The notes beneath the pieces were generated by a model. It saw only the letters and a program-made list of their open reading frames with translations. It ran no database searches and was not told where the DNA came from. From positions 173,750 to 237,749 of the forward strand of contig NZ_KB235939.1 of assembly GCF_000332315.1 (NCBI RefSeq): a DNA stretch of 64,000 nt, read 5' to 3'. The stretch comes from Prochlorothrix hollandica PCC 9006 = CALU 1027. Its GTDB lineage: Bacteria > Cyanobacteriota > Cyanobacteriia > Prochlorotrichales > Prochlorotrichaceae. The position numbers were made by a program, and so were the translations under genes. This document shows positions 1-56,767 of the stretch, in pieces (position 1 is the stretch's first letter; every line of letters begins with the position of its first letter).

Positions 1-224
1 TCCAAGCTGTTCGCTGTACGGCTGGCTAGACAAAGCAGTCGGATTGCCAGAAATCCTGGTCTTACGCCCGTTCTTTGTCCATTTAGAGTCTTGGATTAGC
101 TCCAACCCAGACTTTTATCGTGCTTTTATGCTAATTAAAATAGCATAGATGGAGAAGGCTGGATAGATCAGTTGCAGGAAAAAAAGCCGTCCTAGAAGGA
201 CGGGGCTTTAGACCCAGATTTTAG
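1..224 (-). mobile_element. IS200/IS605-type element, deleted copy A, cut by window edge
   Basis: Bases 1-117 match the 3' end of the tnpB gene of the full copy at 3582-5046 (same strand). They then jump to the opposite end: the palindrome ATGCTA-N7-TAGCAT at 128-146, a few last codons of the small ribbon-helix-helix ORF, and the left-end hairpin GTCCTAGAAGGAC. The element ends before GTAA (225-228), which read on the minus strand is the TTAC target typical of IS608-like insertions. Nearly all of tnpB and most of the small ORF are gone, so this is a smaller and older deletion than copies C and D. The right end lies outside the window. Confidence 0.85.
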
Positions 225-615
225 GTAACACGTTAGAGGCTAGGAAGGAGCAATGCTTTCAGGATTGGAATGGCGAGGTTGACGGTTGCGGCGGCAGGTA
301 GCCGGAAGTCAGACGAGTCCAGTAATGGAGAGATTGCTGGCGCGGGGCTGATGGTTCCGTTCTCTCTCTACGCTATCGGGGCAGGGGTTTCAACCATGCT
401 GTTAGCAAAATCTGACGGGGGCGCTGACCCATTTACGTCAGGGGTATTGCCCACCCAAACCGCAGGTATGCCATGGAATCTGGGGCTTGGGGACGGCAGT
501 TTAGAACCGGCCCTAAGCCTTGAGACTGCAAGGCTAGTGATAGTCGAGGATTTTAGGCTCAAAACTAAAATTCTCGACTAGCTACCTTGGCCTGCGGTGA
601 TCTGAACCTAGATGC
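225..615. other. Intergenic stretch with uncertain ORF and a long palindrome
   Basis: A 103-codon open frame (270-581, plus strand) is present but resembles no family I recognise, and its reverse strand is also open over much of the length. I do not call it a gene. Its last codons lie inside the palindrome at 541-580. Nothing else is recognisable. Confidence 0.3.
541..580. terminator. Perfect 16-bp stem palindrome, possible bidirectional terminator for hli
   Basis: Arms 541-556 and 565-580 pair over 16 bp with one G-T wobble around an 8-base loop. The stem is AU-rich near the loop. It lies about 35 bases downstream of the hli stop codon (hli reads on the minus strand), so termination of hli transcription is the simplest role. 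There is no long U tract, so a processing or protein-binding site is also possible. Confidence 0.4.
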
Positions 616-3454: not shown

Positions 3455-3557
3455 TACAGCAACCCTAAATCAGTTGTAAGGATCTCGAAGGCTGAAACCC
3501 TTGGTGTGGTGTGCCCCCGGAGGGGGCACACCACACGACCCATTTAGGACTGCTGTA
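3455..3557 (+). mobile_element. R1 palindromic element, copy 1
   Basis: R1 begins TACAGCAaCCTAAAT-like and ends ATTTAGGACTGCTGTA, giving 16-bp terminal inverted repeats (TACAGCARTCCTAAAT) with TA at each outer edge. Inside are a conserved CTGAAACCC block and a long hairpin (GTGTGGTGTGCCCCC / GGGGGCACACCACAC). Ten copies occur in this window in both orientations. The TA-bounded ends suggest a miniature element moved by an IS630/Tc1-type transposase; no such gene is present here. Confidence 0.85.
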
Positions 3558-3581: not shown

Positions 3582-3790
3582 TTGACATGCTCCCCGACCT
3601 AAAGGTGCGGGGATTCTCCGGCTAGGCGAATAGTCCAAGCTGTTCGCTGTACGGCTGGCTAGACAAAGCAGTCGGATTGCCAGACATCCTGGTCTTACGC
3701 CCGTTCTTTGTCCATTTAGAGTCTTGGGTTAGCCCCAACCCAGACTTTTCGATATTTTTGGCGGCATTACCATCTCTACCATGTTCGGTG
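3582..3790 (-). ncRNA. Predicted omega RNA (TnpB guide scaffold) of copy B
   Basis: In characterised IS200/IS605 elements the guide RNA covers the tnpB 3' end and right end and continues into flanking DNA as the guide. Here the equivalent region includes the end of tnpB and the 3592-3612 hairpin. The predicted guide is the flank read outward from 3581 on the minus strand: GATAGGCGTTACGACAGGCG. The 5' boundary is a guess. Confidence 0.45.
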
Positions 3791-4833
3791 CCGCAACTCA
3801 CACAGAGGATGGAACGAACCGATAGAGCAGCCTTGCCCCAACGAAAGCCACAATCAGAACAGATCTGACTGGTTGGCTCCCACCGACTGATGATCCTGAC
3901 CTCTCGATCATTAACCCTGTTGGCCTTGGCCTCACACATAGTTCGTGCGGTGCCCCAACCCTGCTGACTGATGGCCCGTGCCAACTTCCGATTACCAAGC
4001 ATATTCTTCACCGCCAGATCCTCCAACACCACCACTTGATTTTCGTGGATGAGCTGGGTCGTGGTCTTGTGCAGAAAGTCTTTTCGGATATTGGCCGTTT
4101 TTAGCTTCAGCTTTGCAAGGCGCAGCCTAGTCTTTGCGCGACGCTTAGACCCTTTAACTTGGCGGGCCAGCTTACGCTGAAACCGTCGCGTCTTGCGGTC
4201 TAACCGATTATATCCAGGGGATTCTACCCGATCACCTGTGCTGAGAAAGGCAAAGGTTTTGATGCCTAGATCTACCCCAATTGAGGGCCGTAGTGGCTCA
4301 ATGTTGATGGGTCCAATCTCCACTACAAAGCTGGCATGGTATTGCCCAGCCGTGTTACGGATAATGGTCACAGAGCTAGGTTCAGAGGGCAGTGGCCTTG
4401 ACCACTTCACCTTGAAGCGGCCTAACTTGGCCAGTTCAAGCTTATTGCCCTTGAGGGAGAATCCCGTCCGAACAAACCGTGCCGACTGTTGGTTCAGCTT
4501 CTTTTTGAACCGAGGGAAGCCCACCTTTGACCCTTTTCGTTTGCCGCTACGGCTCTCAAAAAAGTTCTTGAAGGCGACACTTAAATCCTGAACCGACTGC
4601 TGCAAGGGCACGGCTGACACATCGGCCAACCATTTCCGTTCAGCCGTCTTTTTGGCCTGAGTGATCACCAGCTTTTGCAGTTCAGCATTGCTGGGCCATT
4701 TCTCGCCCTGCGGCACTGACCGCACAATCGCCAGGGCATCGTTGTACACAACTCGACAACACCCAAAAAGCTGATTCAGCCCTTTGACCTGTTGCGGTGT
4801 TGGATAAATTCGGTACTGGTATCGTACTTTCAT
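3622..4833 (-). CDS. tnpB: TnpB RNA-guided nuclease of an IS605-type element
   Basis: From the ATG at 4833 the protein has 403 residues, the usual TnpB size. It has an N-terminal helix-turn-helix-like region, a wedge/linker rich in Arg and Lys, and a split RuvC domain. RuvC-I is SIGVDLGIKTF (D188), RuvC-II is VVLEDLAVKNML (E271) and RuvC-III is GRDGNAAKNI (D354). Between the last two lies a four-cysteine zinc ribbon (C325, C328, C344, C347). All catalytic residues are present, so it looks active. The ATG at 4833 gives the family-typical start MKVRYQYRIYPT and sits inside a conserved palindrome; a longer reading from 4896 would run across that palindrome. TnpB is known to cut the vacated donor site and so preserve its element. 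Confidence 0.93.
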   Translation of the reverse strand: MKVRYQYRIYPTPQQVKGLNQLFGCCRVVYNDALAIVRSVPQGEKWPSNAELQKLVITQAKKTAERKWLADVSAVPLQQSVQDLSVAFKNFFESRSGKRKGSKVGFPRFKKKLNQQSARFVRTGFSLKGNKLELAKLGRFKVKWSRPLPSEPSSVTIIRNTAGQYHASFVVEIGPINIEPLRPSIGVDLGIKTFAFLSTGDRVESPGYNRLDRKTRRFQRKLARQVKGSKRRAKTRLRLAKLKLKTANIRKDFLHKTTTQLIHENQVVVLEDLAVKNMLGNRKLARAISQQGWGTARTMCEAKANRVNDREVRIISRWEPTSQICSDCGFRWGKAALSVRSILCVSCGTEHGRDGNAAKNIEKSGLGLTQDSKWTKNGRKTRMSGNPTALSSQPYSEQLGLFA

Positions 4834-4850
4834 GCTAACCATGATAGCAT
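4832..4850. promoter_or_regulatory. Inverted repeat ATGCTA-N7-TAGCAT, candidate operator
   Basis: The perfect 6-bp arms are conserved in all four element copies while the 7-base centre varies (ACCATGA, ATCATGA twice, ATTAAAA). It overlaps the tnpB start codon and lies 26 bases before the start of the divergent RHH gene. That is the expected site for a dimeric repressor acting on both genes. Confidence 0.5.
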
Positions 4851-4876
4851 AGATGGATAGACGATGGGTAGGTACA

Positions 4877-5017
4877 ATGGCGAAAGAAAGTCTCAATTTA
4901 AGGGTGTCCGGCGCTAGGTTGGCAAAGTTTAGGCGGATTGCGGAACAGAGAGAGAAGACGATGACCCAGCTTGTGGAAGACTGGATAGATCGGTTGCAGG
5001 AAGAAAAGCCGTCCTAG
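4877..5017 (+). CDS. Small ribbon-helix-helix (CopG/Arc-like) protein carried by the tnpB element
   Basis: This 46-residue protein begins MAKESLNLRVSGARLAKFRR and is too short for most gene finders. The pattern is a basic beta strand (residues 4-10), helix A (12-25), a KTMT turn, and helix B (QLVEDWIDRLQEE). This matches the RHH fold used by small dimeric DNA-binding proteins. It is read divergently from tnpB with 43 bases between the two start codons. Its stop codon lies inside the left-end hairpin. Two further copies (28687-28827 and 37664-37804) are intact with only one to three residue changes. The function as a regulator of tnpB or of transposition is inferred from fold and position. Confidence 0.75.
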   Translation: MAKESLNLRVSGARLAKFRRIAEQREKTMTQLVEDWIDRLQEEKPS

Positions 5018-5080
5018 AAGGACGGGGCTTTAGACCCAGATTTTCGGTAACTCTTGTCGTAATTCCTCAGAATCAATCCC

Positions 5081-6787: not shown

Positions 6788-7070
6788 GTAATTATTCAGG
6801 GGGGCACGGGAGAATGAGGGTTTCAGGCTTCAGAAAACAGACCTGAGGCGATTGGAGAGGGTCTATTTCACCTTGGCAGATTCCTCGATTTTGGTAGGGG
6901 CAATCCCCCCGTGGTTGCCCCGGCTGTGGGTCGCGAAGAGGGTCGGCACGGGGGCACGACCCCTACCCGAGGTCGAGGGTTCCCCAGTAAATTGAACCCC
7001 TTTGAGACGGTCCTGACCGGCGATCGTCGGGCTGAAACCCTACTAACTTCGTCCCCCCCTGAATAGTTAC
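6788..7070. mobile_element. R2 miniature element (about 283 bp), copy 1, with 9-bp target duplication
   Basis: The ends are GTAATTATTCAGGGGGG and CCCCCCTGAATAGTTAC, terminal inverted repeats with one mismatch. CCTACAGCG stands immediately on both sides (6779-6787 and 7071-7079), an exact 9-bp target-site duplication. The interior has no open frame of note. Other copies are at 11542-11825, 17865-18103 (end lost) and 56485-56767. The features fit a non-autonomous DNA transposon; the partner transposase is not in the window. Confidence 0.88.
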
Positions 7071-11541: not shown

Positions 11542-11825
11542 GTAATTATTCAGGGGGTCACGGGGGAATGAGGGTTTCAGGCTTCAGAAAACAGACCTGA
11601 GGCGATTGGAGAGGGTCTATTTCACCTTGGCAGATTCCCCGATTTTGGTAGGGGCAATCCCCCCGTGGTTGCCCCGGTTGTGGGTCGCGAAGAGGGTCGG
11701 CACGGGGGCACGACCCCTACCCGAGGTCGATGGTTCCAAGGTGAAATGCATCCCGTTGATCCGGCTCTGACCGGCGATTGTGGGGCTGAAACTCTACTAA
11801 CTTCGTCCCCCCCCTGAATAGTTAC
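11542..11825. mobile_element. R2 miniature element, copy 2
   Basis: The full-length copy has GTAATTATTCAGGGGG and CCCCCCTGAATAGTTAC ends. Its flanks (GTGCCAGGT and TAAACCGGA) do not match, so no target duplication is visible. It fills the gap between two convergent genes. Confidence 0.85.
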
Positions 11826-17864: not shown

Positions 17865-18103
17865 CCATCGCCGGTCAGAGCCGGATCAACGGGGTGTATT
17901 TCACCTTGGAAGCATCGACCTCGGGTAGGGTTCTCGCCCCCGTGCCGACCCTCTTGGCGACCCACAACCGGGGCAACCACGGGGGGATTGCCCCTACCAA
18001 AATCGGTGAACCCCCCCAAGTGAAATGGATCCTCTCCAATCGCCTAAGGTCTGTTGTCTAGAGCCTGAAACCTTCATTCTCCTGTGGACCCCTGAATAAT
18101 TAC
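17865..18103. mobile_element. R2 miniature element, copy 3, one end lost
   Basis: This copy is inverted relative to copy 1. The GTAATTATTCAGGGG end is intact at 18103, but about 40 bases of the other end are missing. The intact end abuts a cytochrome P450 gene fragment. Confidence 0.8.
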
Positions 18104-18195: not shown

Positions 18196-18298
18196 TACAG
18201 CAGTCCTAAATGGGTCGTGTGGTGTGCCCCCGGAGGGGGCACACCACACCAAGGGTTTCAGCCGTCGAGATCCTTACAACTGATTTAGGGTTGCTGTA
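18196..18298 (-). mobile_element. R1 palindromic element, copy 2
   Basis: Inverted copy with TACAGCAGTCCTAAAT and ATTTAGGGTTGCTGTA ends and the GTGTGGTGTGCCCCC hairpin. It abuts the P450 fragment. Confidence 0.85.
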
Positions 18299-28145: not shown

Positions 28146-28239
28146 AAGCGACTGGTTTGAGGAGTGAGTGGGAGTGGTAGCTGGGACAAGGATCCGGTCT
28201 ATGGGTTCCAGGGATTAGCCCTAGGGTAGCCGAGATCAT

Positions 28240-28450
28240 TTGACATGCTCCCCGACCTAAAGGTGCGGGGATTCTCCGGCTAGGCGAATAGTCCAAGCTG
28301 TTCGCTGTACGGCTGGCTAGACAAAGCAGTCGGATTGCCAGACATCCTGGTCTTACGCCCGTTCTTTGTCCATTTAGAGTCTTGGGTTAGCCCCAACCCA
28401 GACTTTTCGATATTTTTGGCAGCATTACCATCTCTGTCATGTTCGGTTCC
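28240..28450 (-). ncRNA. Predicted omega RNA retained in copy C
   Basis: Corresponds to the tnpB 3' end and right-end hairpin of copy B with few changes. The predicted guide is the flank read outward from 28239 on the minus strand (ATGATCTCGGCTACCCTAG). This RNA could only act with TnpB supplied from elsewhere. Confidence 0.4.
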
Positions 28451-28643
28451 GCAACTCACACAGAGGATGGAACGAACCGATAGAGCAACCTTGCCCCACC
28501 GAAAGCCACAATCAGAACAGATCTGACTGGTTGGCTCCCACCGACTGATAATCCTAACCTCTCGATCATTAACCAAAAAGCTGATTCAGCCCTTTGACCT
28601 GTTGCGGCGTTGGATAAATTCGGTACTGGTATCGTGCTTTCAT
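28280..28643 (-). pseudogene. tnpB remnant in copy C
   Basis: The first 24 codons (MKARYQYRIYPTPQQVKGLN, then QLFG) end at a stop directly after the deletion junction. The following sequence still encodes, in another frame, the last 97 residues of TnpB with the zinc ribbon and RuvC-III Asp. RuvC-I and RuvC-II are absent, so no nuclease can be made. The C-terminal frame (28280-28576) has only a TTG start and may be kept only for its RNA. Confidence 0.88.
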
Positions 28644-28686
28644 GCTAATCATGATAGCATAGATGGGTAGACGATGGGTAGGTGCA

Positions 28687-28827
28687 ATGGCGAAAGAAAG
28701 ACTCAGTTTAAGGGTGTCTGGCGCTAGGTTGGCAAAGCTTAGGCGGATTGCGGAACAGAGAGAGAAGACGATGACCCAGCTTGTGGAAGACTGGATAGAT
28801 CGGTTGCAGGAAGAAAAGCCGTCCTAG
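28687..28827 (+). CDS. Small ribbon-helix-helix protein, copy C
   Basis: Intact 46 codons, beginning MAKERLSLRVSGARLAKLRR. It differs from copy B at residues 5, 7 and 18 and is otherwise identical, including helix B. It has stayed open although tnpB in the same element is destroyed. Confidence 0.72.
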   Translation: MAKERLSLRVSGARLAKLRRIAEQREKTMTQLVEDWIDRLQEEKPS

Positions 28828-28975
28828 AAGGACGGGGCTTTAGACCCAGATTTTCGGTAAAGAACCTCTAATAATTCTATCGTGTTTATTACCATTACTT
28901 GGCATCGGTTATGGGAGAGTTATCCCCCCTTACGGTTCTCTTCCTAGTTCTCTCCCCCTCACGACGGGGGTTGCC

Positions 28976-32786: not shown

Positions 32787-32804
32787 CCTGAAGCGCTTCT
32801 ATCT

Positions 32805-32906
32805 ACAGCAGTCCTAAATGGGTCGTGTGGTGTGCCCCCGGAGGGGGCACACCACACCAAGGGTTTCAGCCATCGAGATGCCTACAACTGATTTAGGGTT
32901 GCTGTA
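32805..32906 (-). mobile_element. R1 palindromic element, copy 5
   Basis: Inverted copy with intact ends and a perfect GTGTGGTGTGCCCCC/GGGGGCACACCACAC hairpin. A GGACTTCAGTCCTTACTACGAAC repeat follows at 32908. Confidence 0.85.
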
Positions 32907-36951: not shown

Positions 36952-37216
36952 CGTTTCCTTGCGAAGGATAAACACTAAGAGTGGAAACAAGACCACCGTT
37001 ATGGCAGTTGTGTTGCCATCCTGGGTTTAGCCACCATCTGAATTAAAGGGCGAAGGGGCTAATTGACCACCAGCGCTCAGGCGAGGGTGCATCCTCCAGA
37101 GGAATTTAGATCCTAAGAGGCGACGGAAGTTGTCCTAGGGGGTGTCCTAGGGGAATTAGCACTGCCCAGGGCTAAGTTGTACCATAACTTAGTGTATGGC
37201 TTCCCATCCCCAAACT

Positions 37217-37430
37217 TTGACATGCTCCCCGACCTCAAGGTGCGGGGATTCTCCGGCTAGGCGAATAGTCCAAGCTGTTCGCTGTACGGCTGGCTAGACA
37301 AAGCAGTCGGATTGCCAGACATCCTGGTCTTACGCCCGTTCTTTGTCCATTTAGAGTCTTGGGTTAGCCCCAACCCAGACTTTTCGATATTTTTGGCGGC
37401 ATTACCATCTCTATCATGTTCGGTGCCGCA
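37217..37430 (-). ncRNA. Predicted omega RNA retained in copy D
   Basis: Right-end hairpin (CCCCGACCTCAAGGTGCGGGG with a loop change) plus tnpB 3' sequence as in copies B and C. The guide would be the flank read outward from 37216 on the minus strand. Confidence 0.4.
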
Positions 37431-37620
37431 ACTCACACAGAGGATGGAACGAACCGATAGAGCAACCTTGCCCCACCGAAAGCCACAATCAGAACAGATC
37501 TGACTGGTTGGCTCCCACCGACTGATAATCCTAACCTCTCGATCATTAACCAAAAAGCTGATTCAGCCCTTTGACCTGTTGCGGCGTTGGATAAATTCGG
37601 TACTGGTATCGTGCTTTCAT
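37257..37620 (-). pseudogene. tnpB remnant in copy D
   Basis: The same fusion of codons 1-24 to an out-of-frame codon 307 as in copy C, with a stop just after the junction. The zinc ribbon and RuvC-III region is retained; RuvC-I and RuvC-II are lost. Confidence 0.88.
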
Positions 37621-37663
37621 GCTAATCATGATAGCATAGATGGGTAGACGATGGGTAGGTGCA

Positions 37664-37804
37664 ATGGCGAAAGAAAGCCTCAGTTTAAGGGTGTCTGGCG
37701 CTAGGTTGGCAAAGCTTAGGCGGATTGCGGAACAGAGAGAGAAGACGATGACCCAGCTTGTGGAAGACTGGATAGATCGGTTGCAGGAAGAAAAGCCGTC
37801 CTAG
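37664..37804 (+). CDS. Small ribbon-helix-helix protein, copy D
   Basis: Intact 46 codons (MAKESLSLRVSGARLAKLRR). It differs from copy C only at residue 5 and from copy B at residues 7 and 18. The stop lies in the left-end hairpin as in the other copies. Confidence 0.72.
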   Translation: MAKESLSLRVSGARLAKLRRIAEQREKTMTQLVEDWIDRLQEEKPS

Positions 37805-37837
37805 AAGGACGGGGCTTTAGACCCAGATTTTCGGTAA

Positions 37838-48154: not shown

Positions 48155-48257
48155 TACAGCAGTCCTAAATGGGTCGTGTGGTGTGCCCCCGGAGGGGGCA
48201 CACCACACCAAGAGTTTCAGCCATCGAGATGCCTACAACTGATTTAGGGTTGCTGTA
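48155..48257 (-). mobile_element. R1 palindromic element, copy 9
   Basis: Inverted copy with intact ends and a perfect GTGTGGTGTGCCCCC hairpin, downstream of the PIN gene. Confidence 0.85.
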
Positions 48258-52566: not shown

Positions 52567-53541
52567 CTATGGCGCGTCCTCTAGTCCTTGGATGTCACCG
52601 TAATCCCCCGTAGGCTGTTGCCAGTCATTTAAGGGCCGAGTGACGGCTTGCTCAAAGGTGATGGGGATCAGGCGGACGGTGAGGGTGGTGGGGGCTTCGG
52701 GGGGATCGACTTGGGCATAGAGGGCGGTGCGGTTAAAGTCCGGACTACCCAGCACAAGACGATGACTAGAGCCATCTTTGAGGGTGACGGTGATGGTGGC
52801 AAAGGGTTGATCAAAGCCAAATTCCGGGGCACGATCGGCGATCACTTCCAGGGTGCGATCGCTGGCTCCTGTCACCAAAAGATTGAGTAAAAAGGCCACG
52901 GAACCATCGTTGGCGGGTCCAGGCAGGGGTTGTACCAGTTGCCACTGGGCCGGGGGAAGATCGTCGGGTACGGCTAAAGCATCTGGATCGGAAGGTTCGG
53001 CACTACTGGTTTCGGCCCCATCGGTTTCGGCACTACCGGTTTCGGCACTACCGGTTTCAGCACCATCGGTTTCAGCACTACCGGTTTCAGCACCATTGGT
53101 TTCGGCACCATCGGTTTCAGCATTACCGGTTTCAGCATTACCGGTTTCAGCACTACCGGTTTCGGTACCATCGGTTTCGGTACCATCGGTTTCAGCACTA
53201 CCGGTTTCAGCACCAGCCTCGGTTTCAGCACCAGCCTCAGGATCGTCCGCCGCTGTACCGTCATTGCTGACATCAGCTTCCGGGGTGGGCGTTGCGGTGG
53301 ATTGATCGGGTGCAGCCGGATCGGGGGCGGGGGGTTCCGGCGATCGCATCAACTCCACAGTGGCCTGGGTCGTGATCACCTGAATGCTTTGGATATCGGC
53401 TTCTTCAAAGGCAAACAGGTCTTTGGCTTCGGTCTCAGCGGTTTCCTGGCGGGGAACCAAAACGGTGTCGTAGATCAAGTAACCGCCGCCCAAGACGATG
53501 GCAGCAGCCACAAGGGACAGGGTCGATCGCGGCAATGGCAT
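52567..53541 (-). CDS. DUF4340-like protein of a Gld-type ABC cluster
   Basis: This 324-residue protein has one N-terminal membrane helix (LSLVAAAIVLGGGYLIYDTV), then LFAFEEADIQSIQV, and a C-terminal domain (WQLVQPLPGPANDGSVAFLL, VTLKDGSSHRLVLGSP, ALYAQVD) like DUF4340 proteins encoded next to GldG-type transporters. Between them, residues of about 105-190 are 15-base tandem repeats encoding GSAET/DGAET pentapeptides. It is the last gene of the unit and 164 bases after the GldG-like gene. Confidence 0.78.
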   Translation of the reverse strand: MPLPRSTLSLVAAAIVLGGGYLIYDTVLVPRQETAETEAKDLFAFEEADIQSIQVITTQATVELMRSPEPPAPDPAAPDQSTATPTPEADVSNDGTAADDPEAGAETEAGAETGSAETDGTETDGTETGSAETGNAETGNAETDGAETNGAETGSAETDGAETGSAETGSAETDGAETSSAEPSDPDALAVPDDLPPAQWQLVQPLPGPANDGSVAFLLNLLVTGASDRTLEVIADRAPEFGFDQPFATITVTLKDGSSHRLVLGSPDFNRTALYAQVDPPEAPTTLTVRLIPITFEQAVTRPLNDWQQPTGDYGDIQGLEDAP

Positions 53542-56484: not shown

Positions 56485-56767
56485 GTAATTATTCAGGGGT
56501 CCACAGGAGAATGAGGGTTTCAGGCTCTAGACAACAGACCTTAGGCGATTGGAGAGGGTCTATTTCACCTTGGCAGATTCCCCGATTTTGGTAGGGGCAA
56601 TCCCCCCGTGGTTGCCCCGGCTGTGGGTCCCCAAGAGGGTCGGTACGGGGGCAAGAACCCTACCTGAGGTCGAGGGTTCCCCAGTAAACTGGACCCCTTT
56701 GAGACGCTCCTGACCGGCGATCGTCGGGCTGAAACCCTACTAACTTCGTCCCCCCCTGAATAGTTAC
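56485..56767. mobile_element. R2 miniature element, copy 4
   Basis: Full ends as in copy 1. The 9 bases on either side are ATCCCTCTC and ATCCCTCTA, an 8-of-9 match to a target duplication. It separates the ABC ATPase gene from its permease gene. The rest of 56768-56984 has three TCTAGG-CAAG-CTGCC tandem units (about 56920-56985). Confidence 0.88.

Follow-up and report, generated by a model that had tools for sequence, protein, structure and literature searches.

Two short elements of equal length, C (28240..28856) and D (37217..37833), lie in the window, the 64,000-nt stretch of the Prochlorothrix hollandica PCC 9006 genome analysed here. Both are 617 bp and lie on the minus strand in the sense of tnpB; C is a non-autonomous derivative of a TnpB element and D is a second copy with the same deletion junction. 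Read in that sense, each starts with CGAAAATC after the target tetranucleotide TTAC (28857..28860, minus strand, GTAA on the plus strand, for C; 37834..37837, minus strand, for D) and ends in GGGGAGCATGTCAA, the last letters being TCAA. From the left end onwards they carry an RHH gene of 46 codons plus stop on the plus strand (28687..28827 in C, with the last codons and the stop inside the left-end hairpin; 37664..37804 in D), a divergent intergenic region (28639..28686 and 37616..37663, minus strand), a truncated tnpB frame, which in C (28569..28643, minus strand) runs for 24 codons into a TAA at the junction, and an omega RNA scaffold region (28240..28407 and 37217..37384, minus strand). The flank 3' of the TCAA end of C (28220..28239, minus strand) is its presumed guide by analogy with the reRNA of ISDra2 (PMC8612924), and 37197..37216 (minus strand) would be that of D.

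The full-length reference is copy B (3582..5046, minus strand, 1465 bp), which encodes a TnpB of 403 aa (3622..4833, minus strand) and, divergent from tnpB, the 46-codon RHH gene (4880..5020, plus strand). This TnpB matches Pfam OrfB_IS605 and Cas12f1-like_TNB above cut-off as well as NCBIfam guided_TnpB, and its alignment to ISDra2 TnpB (8bf8/8h1j) spans residues 5-367 with the RuvC catalytic motifs. Copy B is a TnpB-only IS200/IS605 element, because none of the five Y1_Tnp matches of the genome falls within an element of the family. A pattern search finds about 105 right and 99 left ends genome-wide, and TTAC stands directly before 98 of the 99 left ends in all size classes. The elements have subterminal hairpins, the fixed target flank TTAC and the TCAA right end, and a target duplication is absent from their flanks. 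Gap-free copies comprise 14 full-length ones, all with the 403-aa TnpB, three of 1066 bp (a 399-bp deletion), one of 867 bp, the two of 617 bp and 43 of 255-377 bp. Many other apparent size variants, such as those of 421, 468, 488 and 720 bp, contain 100-N gaps and were not counted as real forms. The 1066-bp copies (L047, L070, L105) have in common an in-phase tnpB deletion (B538-935, in copy B numbering), and a 270-aa TnpB without RuvC-I stays open in L047 and L070. The part of copy A at the window start (1..226, minus strand) belongs to a different, shorter family of omega-RNA-only elements (276-bp type) and is cut by an assembly gap just beyond the window.

How did C and D arise? In both, B284 is joined to B1131 across a 2-nt microhomology (28572..28573 in C and, identically, 37549..37550 in D, minus strand), which takes tnpB from codon 24 to about codon 306; the sequence-only reading, whose coordinates for the two elements were exact, had the first codon right and placed the second at 307. 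RuvC-I and RuvC-II are both missing. C and D differ at 5 of 617 positions and have in common four substitutions (B138A, B208A, B249G, B1149T) found in none of the 18 other long copies, and their flanks are unrelated. Shared junction and shared substitutions at two unrelated sites argue that C and D are the product of neither chance nor a bigger duplicated block, and that the deleted form moved as a unit, as had been proposed. A single deletion with later movement of the deleted form to a second site is the simplest reading of these sequences. Genome-wide, the exact junction occurs in C and D only, a count that is a lower bound given that some 39 element stretches are interrupted by 100-N assembly gaps. 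Of the findings that would have counted against the sequence-only reading, a junction limited to two copies is the case for this exact junction, a larger duplicated block is contradicted by the flanks, and breakage of RHH frames elsewhere is partly seen (see below).

In C and D the deletion has spared both ends with the TTAC flank, the divergent region with its candidate promoter and operator, an intact RHH frame and the 3' end of tnpB. Does this right end hold an entire omega RNA? Fifteen right ends from TnpB relatives, mostly 50-74% identical to the TnpB of copy B, were aligned (alignment A5). Covariation among them supports a four-helix structure: of its 26 pairs, 14 show both-side changes, the cells with such changes number 44 against 17.4 in shuffles (reached in 0 of 500), and 85% of cells are paired compared with 36-43% in slid controls. 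In this alignment hairpin 1 of copy B has its left arm displaced by one base, at a small cost to the pairing count; folded by itself, copy B does form the hairpin. The case for an RNA structure rests on covariation, the single-sequence folding energy alone being not significant (z -1.14). Searched with the element, Rfam returned nothing meaningful. With the structure model R1, copies B and C score 140.1 bits, D 137.8 and the short families described below 136.6-138.1, so that the scaffold is whole in C and D and in the short forms alike; by this model, the right end of C and D is a complete omega RNA scaffold, in agreement with the earlier claim that it was retained. It is untranslated in C and D, where the tnpB frame stops at the junction; in copy B the tnpB frame overlaps it. 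C and D by themselves are no evidence of selection for the omega RNA, because the 335 bp retained there exceeds it. The ISDra2 reRNA has about 150 nt with a guide of ~16 nt taken from the flank, and is functional from a separate plasmid (PMC8612924).

The RHH frame, intact in C and D as had been noted, is open at 37 places in the genome. Among 20 long copies pN/pS is 0.38 for distinct changes and 0.39 pairwise, and against relatives (L165-L168) pS is 0.83-1.01 and pN 0.15-0.21; judged from these ratios, the gene is under purifying selection. The monomer model (pLDDT 84) has two helices, a predicted helix-helix core, and Foldseek matches are almost all RHH proteins (probability up to 0.94, TM about 0.74), but the E-values, about 0.3, are weak for a protein this short. 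The match to Pfam DUF6364 is below cut-off. Structure predictions point to a CopG/Arc-like RHH protein, and the operator-like repeats in the divergent promoter region, like the Foldseek matches to CopG, CopASO and Arc, recall the repressors of that type; unlike those, this protein has its gene within a TnpB element, and the left-end hairpin codes for its C-terminus. The divergent region of C, like that of D, contains, in order, two 11-bp direct repeats (CTACCCATCGT CTACCCATCTA), an extended -10-like site (TGCTATCAT) and an inverted repeat ATGCTA/TAGCAT. Tandem 11-bp repeats upstream of tnpB are common to 19 RHH loci, with z = 7.5 at lag 11. In most of these loci the extended -10-like site comes next, a site identified by eye and with a loose pattern; a consensus promoter scan found no standard sigma-70 promoter at the proposed -10 site. 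From these motifs, the 48-bp region is a candidate for both the RHH operator and the omega RNA/tnpB promoter.

RHH homologues are present in 29 of 390 genomes of the class. Of 29 loci inspected, 16 have a divergent tnpB beginning nearby, whose product is about 27-34% identical to the TnpB of the window. In closer TnpB relatives the divergent slot is taken by a Y1 TnpA or else by another small RHH-like protein, whose final residues KKPS are coded by the left-end hairpin; several TnpAs in this slot likewise end in KPS. Comparison of these loci indicates that RHH occupies the slot that relatives give to TnpA, an exchange which suggests that the dose of TnpB needs control. The alternatives seen in the slot are TnpA or several distinct RHH-like proteins of 35-48 aa, with the hairpin-coded KPS ending frequent in both (L191, L197, L236, L238, L241, L244, L245 and L252, upstream of tnpB; compare L193, L194, L228, L232 and L239).

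How important is RHH to the shortened elements? The sequence-only reading saw in C and D a non-autonomous element exporting a guide RNA and a regulator. Guide scaffold and RHH gene are indeed kept, but RHH as essential cargo is not supported: it is lost in 43 of the 49 gap-free shortened copies, those of 255-377 bp, and four RHH-bearing copies (L036, L046, L094, L102) carry the same GA insertion within a stretch of (AG)n, which shifts the frame and ends it after 29 codons. RHH is therefore not needed for spread. The 43 copies hold the left hairpin, usually the promoter-like site, and the last 168-174 bp from just before the first omega RNA hairpin. Of copy B, the 276-bp family retains approximately B1-71, a middle piece at roughly B190-227, and B1298-1465; the 257-bp family resembles it but has less of the left part, and the 302-bp family retains B1-108, B191-215 and B1292-1465; as the junctions differ, the 276-bp and 302-bp families stem from separate deletions. 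Their endpoints, B1298 (276 and 257 bp) and B1292 (302 bp), fall 4-10 nt ahead of the first hairpin at B1302. Both the extended -10-like site and the ATGCTA...TAGCAT inverted repeat lie in the middle piece, into which another small repeat is inserted in a few copies. Both 11-bp repeats are kept in C and D, at most one in the short families. Identity within size families is 97-99%. C and D themselves form a side branch of two copies.

Elements of this kind are not confined to one genome. A search of 12 cyanobacterial genomes with R1, with inspection of the surroundings, found guide-RNA-only elements of ~185 bp (genomes G288, G538, G170, G029) and ~300-330 bp (G609, G122), each with a left-end hairpin, an AT-rich -10-like site and an RNA beginning at hairpin 1; across other cyanobacteria their size is about 160-330 bp. 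A pattern made for one omega RNA type has matches in 21 of 390 genomes, which represent 17 of 160 genera. A tnpB lies directly upstream in 2 of 30 pattern loci (L320, L326), and in L331 a divergent TnpB-like match ends some 300 nt before the RNA; most solo copies examined in other genomes have no tnpB upstream of the first hairpin. About half of the 30 loci are minimal elements and most others have a conserved ~190-nt leader. Read from sequence, one solo omega RNA type differs from the TnpB-linked type by a GG/CC to CC/GG switch in hairpin 1. Solo elements are present in near-complete genomes too, such as G029 and G288. The leader (GTTGAAA...GCGAT...GGGCAATGG...CCAACC), which has no match in Rfam, lies between left-end hairpin and omega RNA (L305, L310, L316-L319, L321, L322, L324, L328, L260, L290), and one copy is in the window's genome (G000:C1:16251).

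How are elements that lack both TnpA and TnpB moved and maintained? Both proteins would have to act in trans, as had been recognised. The reading that we prefer, with a probability of about 0.7, is that C and D are PATE-like IS200/IS605 mini-elements made by one deletion from a TnpB-RHH element, which use TnpA and TnpB in trans and whose promoter RHH represses. TnpA in trans would move C, D and the short copies, a step supported by the spread of copies without TnpA. The tnpB promoter in C and D would transcribe a short leader, the omega RNA and the flanking guide; TnpB of the full-length copies would load this RNA and cut the vacated donor site, and recombination would then restore the element there. 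Cutting by TnpB in trans is proposed because the RNA is intact and because of the ISDra2 precedent. RHH would repress the shared promoter through the 11-bp repeats, also in C and D. The same scheme without RHH would also account for the 255-377-bp copies, which are commoner, and for the 160-330-bp elements of other cyanobacteria, which have a promoter-like site upstream of their omega RNA. C and D are one branch of a large stripped-down family, in this and other cyanobacteria, that probably borrows a nuclease for its own retention. And the source of TnpA? None of the five Y1_Tnp matches lies in a family element, and a cognate TnpA was not found in the assembly. Its sole canonical Y1 TnpA (L130, G000:C10:75866-76228) is part of another IS605-type element and shares about 40-43% identity with TnpAs from relatives that have these ends. 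L130 adjoins a different TnpB, and the right end of its element also finishes in GTCAA; the TTAC and left hairpin of the window-element type are not seen there.

The main rival holds that C, D and the small families are passive MITEs or PATEs, mobilised by TnpA only through their intact ends, and that the omega RNA region persists because of its overlap with the right end, with no role as a guide. Much of the retained DNA is indeed right-end sequence, and the PATEs of Haloquadratum walsbyi include 52-bp forms consisting of ends only (PMC3119063). Against this, the retained right end is at least 168 bp long, well past the terminal hairpin, and both the breakpoints of two different deletions and the point where conservation begins in solo elements elsewhere lie at the omega RNA's 5' edge, which passive mobilisation leaves unexplained. 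The promoter-like site upstream in the short forms and the hairpin 1 switch in one solo omega RNA type also speak for the RNA, and make purely passive elements unlikely, if still worth weighing. Might the deleted form never have moved? Two older full-length insertions could have been shortened to one form by gene conversion, for which many 97-98% identical copies are available and with which the unrelated flanks agree, but the private substitutions lie on both sides of the junction (B138, B208, B249 and B1149), which would require conversion of almost the entire 617 bp, and deletion families of other sizes also occur as multiple copies at scattered sites; conversion seems improbable. That the short forms are mis-joined repeats of a scaffolded assembly, as the runs of 100 N in about 39 element stretches might suggest, is very improbable, since C and D contain no N, differ at five positions, have private substitutions in common, and have solo counterparts in near-complete genomes.

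Elements without TnpA and TnpB and with IS605 ends are already known as PATEs (PMC3119063; PMC7290912), and C and D show what defines these: no transposase gene, IS605-type ends and near-terminal palindromes. Those of Haloquadratum walsbyi are likewise mobile, with related ends, and some arose by core deletion of a TnpB element; nested small repeats target them too (PMC3119063). They differ in being described without a guide RNA, core deletion there leaving 52 bp (PMC3119063), whereas the elements here keep a complete omega RNA with a promoter-like site, and C and D also RHH. A PATE-like sequence of Halanaerobium hydrogeniformans comprises the left-end hairpin, the last 58 nt of tnpB and the whole 160-nt right end (PMC7290912); there too, the omega RNA region would be retained. 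In contrast to the elements here, it is a single copy without RHH, without multi-copy families and without a guide-RNA interpretation (PMC7290912). In ISDra2 the reRNA also comes from the tnpB 3' end and right end, the guide from the flank, and the target site equals the TAM (PMC8612924), but ISDra2 has a TnpA and targets TTGAT, whereas the family here targets TTAC and has RHH in the place of TnpA, C and D also lacking TnpB. The IS1341 group similarly has TnpB without TnpA between subterminal hairpins (PMC9956272); what sets the present family apart is the conserved divergent RHH gene in the TnpA slot.

A search conducted mostly outside the subscription literature found no publication that links RHH to TnpB or treats guide-only elements in their own right. 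Meers et al. (Nature, 2023) reportedly mention PATE-like elements with guide RNAs. As far as the literature searched shows, three features are new: many PATE-like elements hold an entire omega RNA together with a promoter-like site, an RHH gene takes the place of TnpA, and guide-RNA-only elements recur across cyanobacteria. A broader proposal, advanced tentatively, is that guide-RNA-only transposons (~160-330 bp, with left-end hairpin, built-in promoter and complete omega RNA) are widespread and repeatedly evolved in cyanobacteria, live off the TnpA and TnpB of others and may outnumber them, and that TnpB elements in which an RHH autorepressor replaces TnpA are likewise widespread, a design that the guide-only forms escape through loss of repressor and operator. 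If the omega RNAs of the short elements are made and used, TnpB would be a shared public good and guide RNAs the spreading unit. Nature would then offer an example of one nuclease serving guides dispersed through a genome, as in CRISPR, and the origin of RNA-guided nucleases with separately encoded guides would become testable. Many cyanobacterial short repeats and MITEs could be re-read as guide RNA genes.

Other repeats accompany these elements. A 103-bp palindromic repeat (ACAGCA...), found in the window at 3455-3557, 18196-18298, 32804-32906 and 48155-48257, is nested in several short copies (L058, L085, L108, L078, L119 and L322), where it frequently interrupts the ATGCTA/TAGCAT site or sits in the left hairpin. 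A repeat of ~283 bp with inverted ends (TTCAGGGGGG...CCCCCCTGAATAGTTACC) occurs at 6788-7070, 11542-11824, 56485-56767 and 17867-18103, and several elements of the TnpB family sit at CTGAATA.TTAC, apparently within such repeats. Window positions 52951-53260 hold an array of a 15-bp tandem repeat with 15 registered copies.
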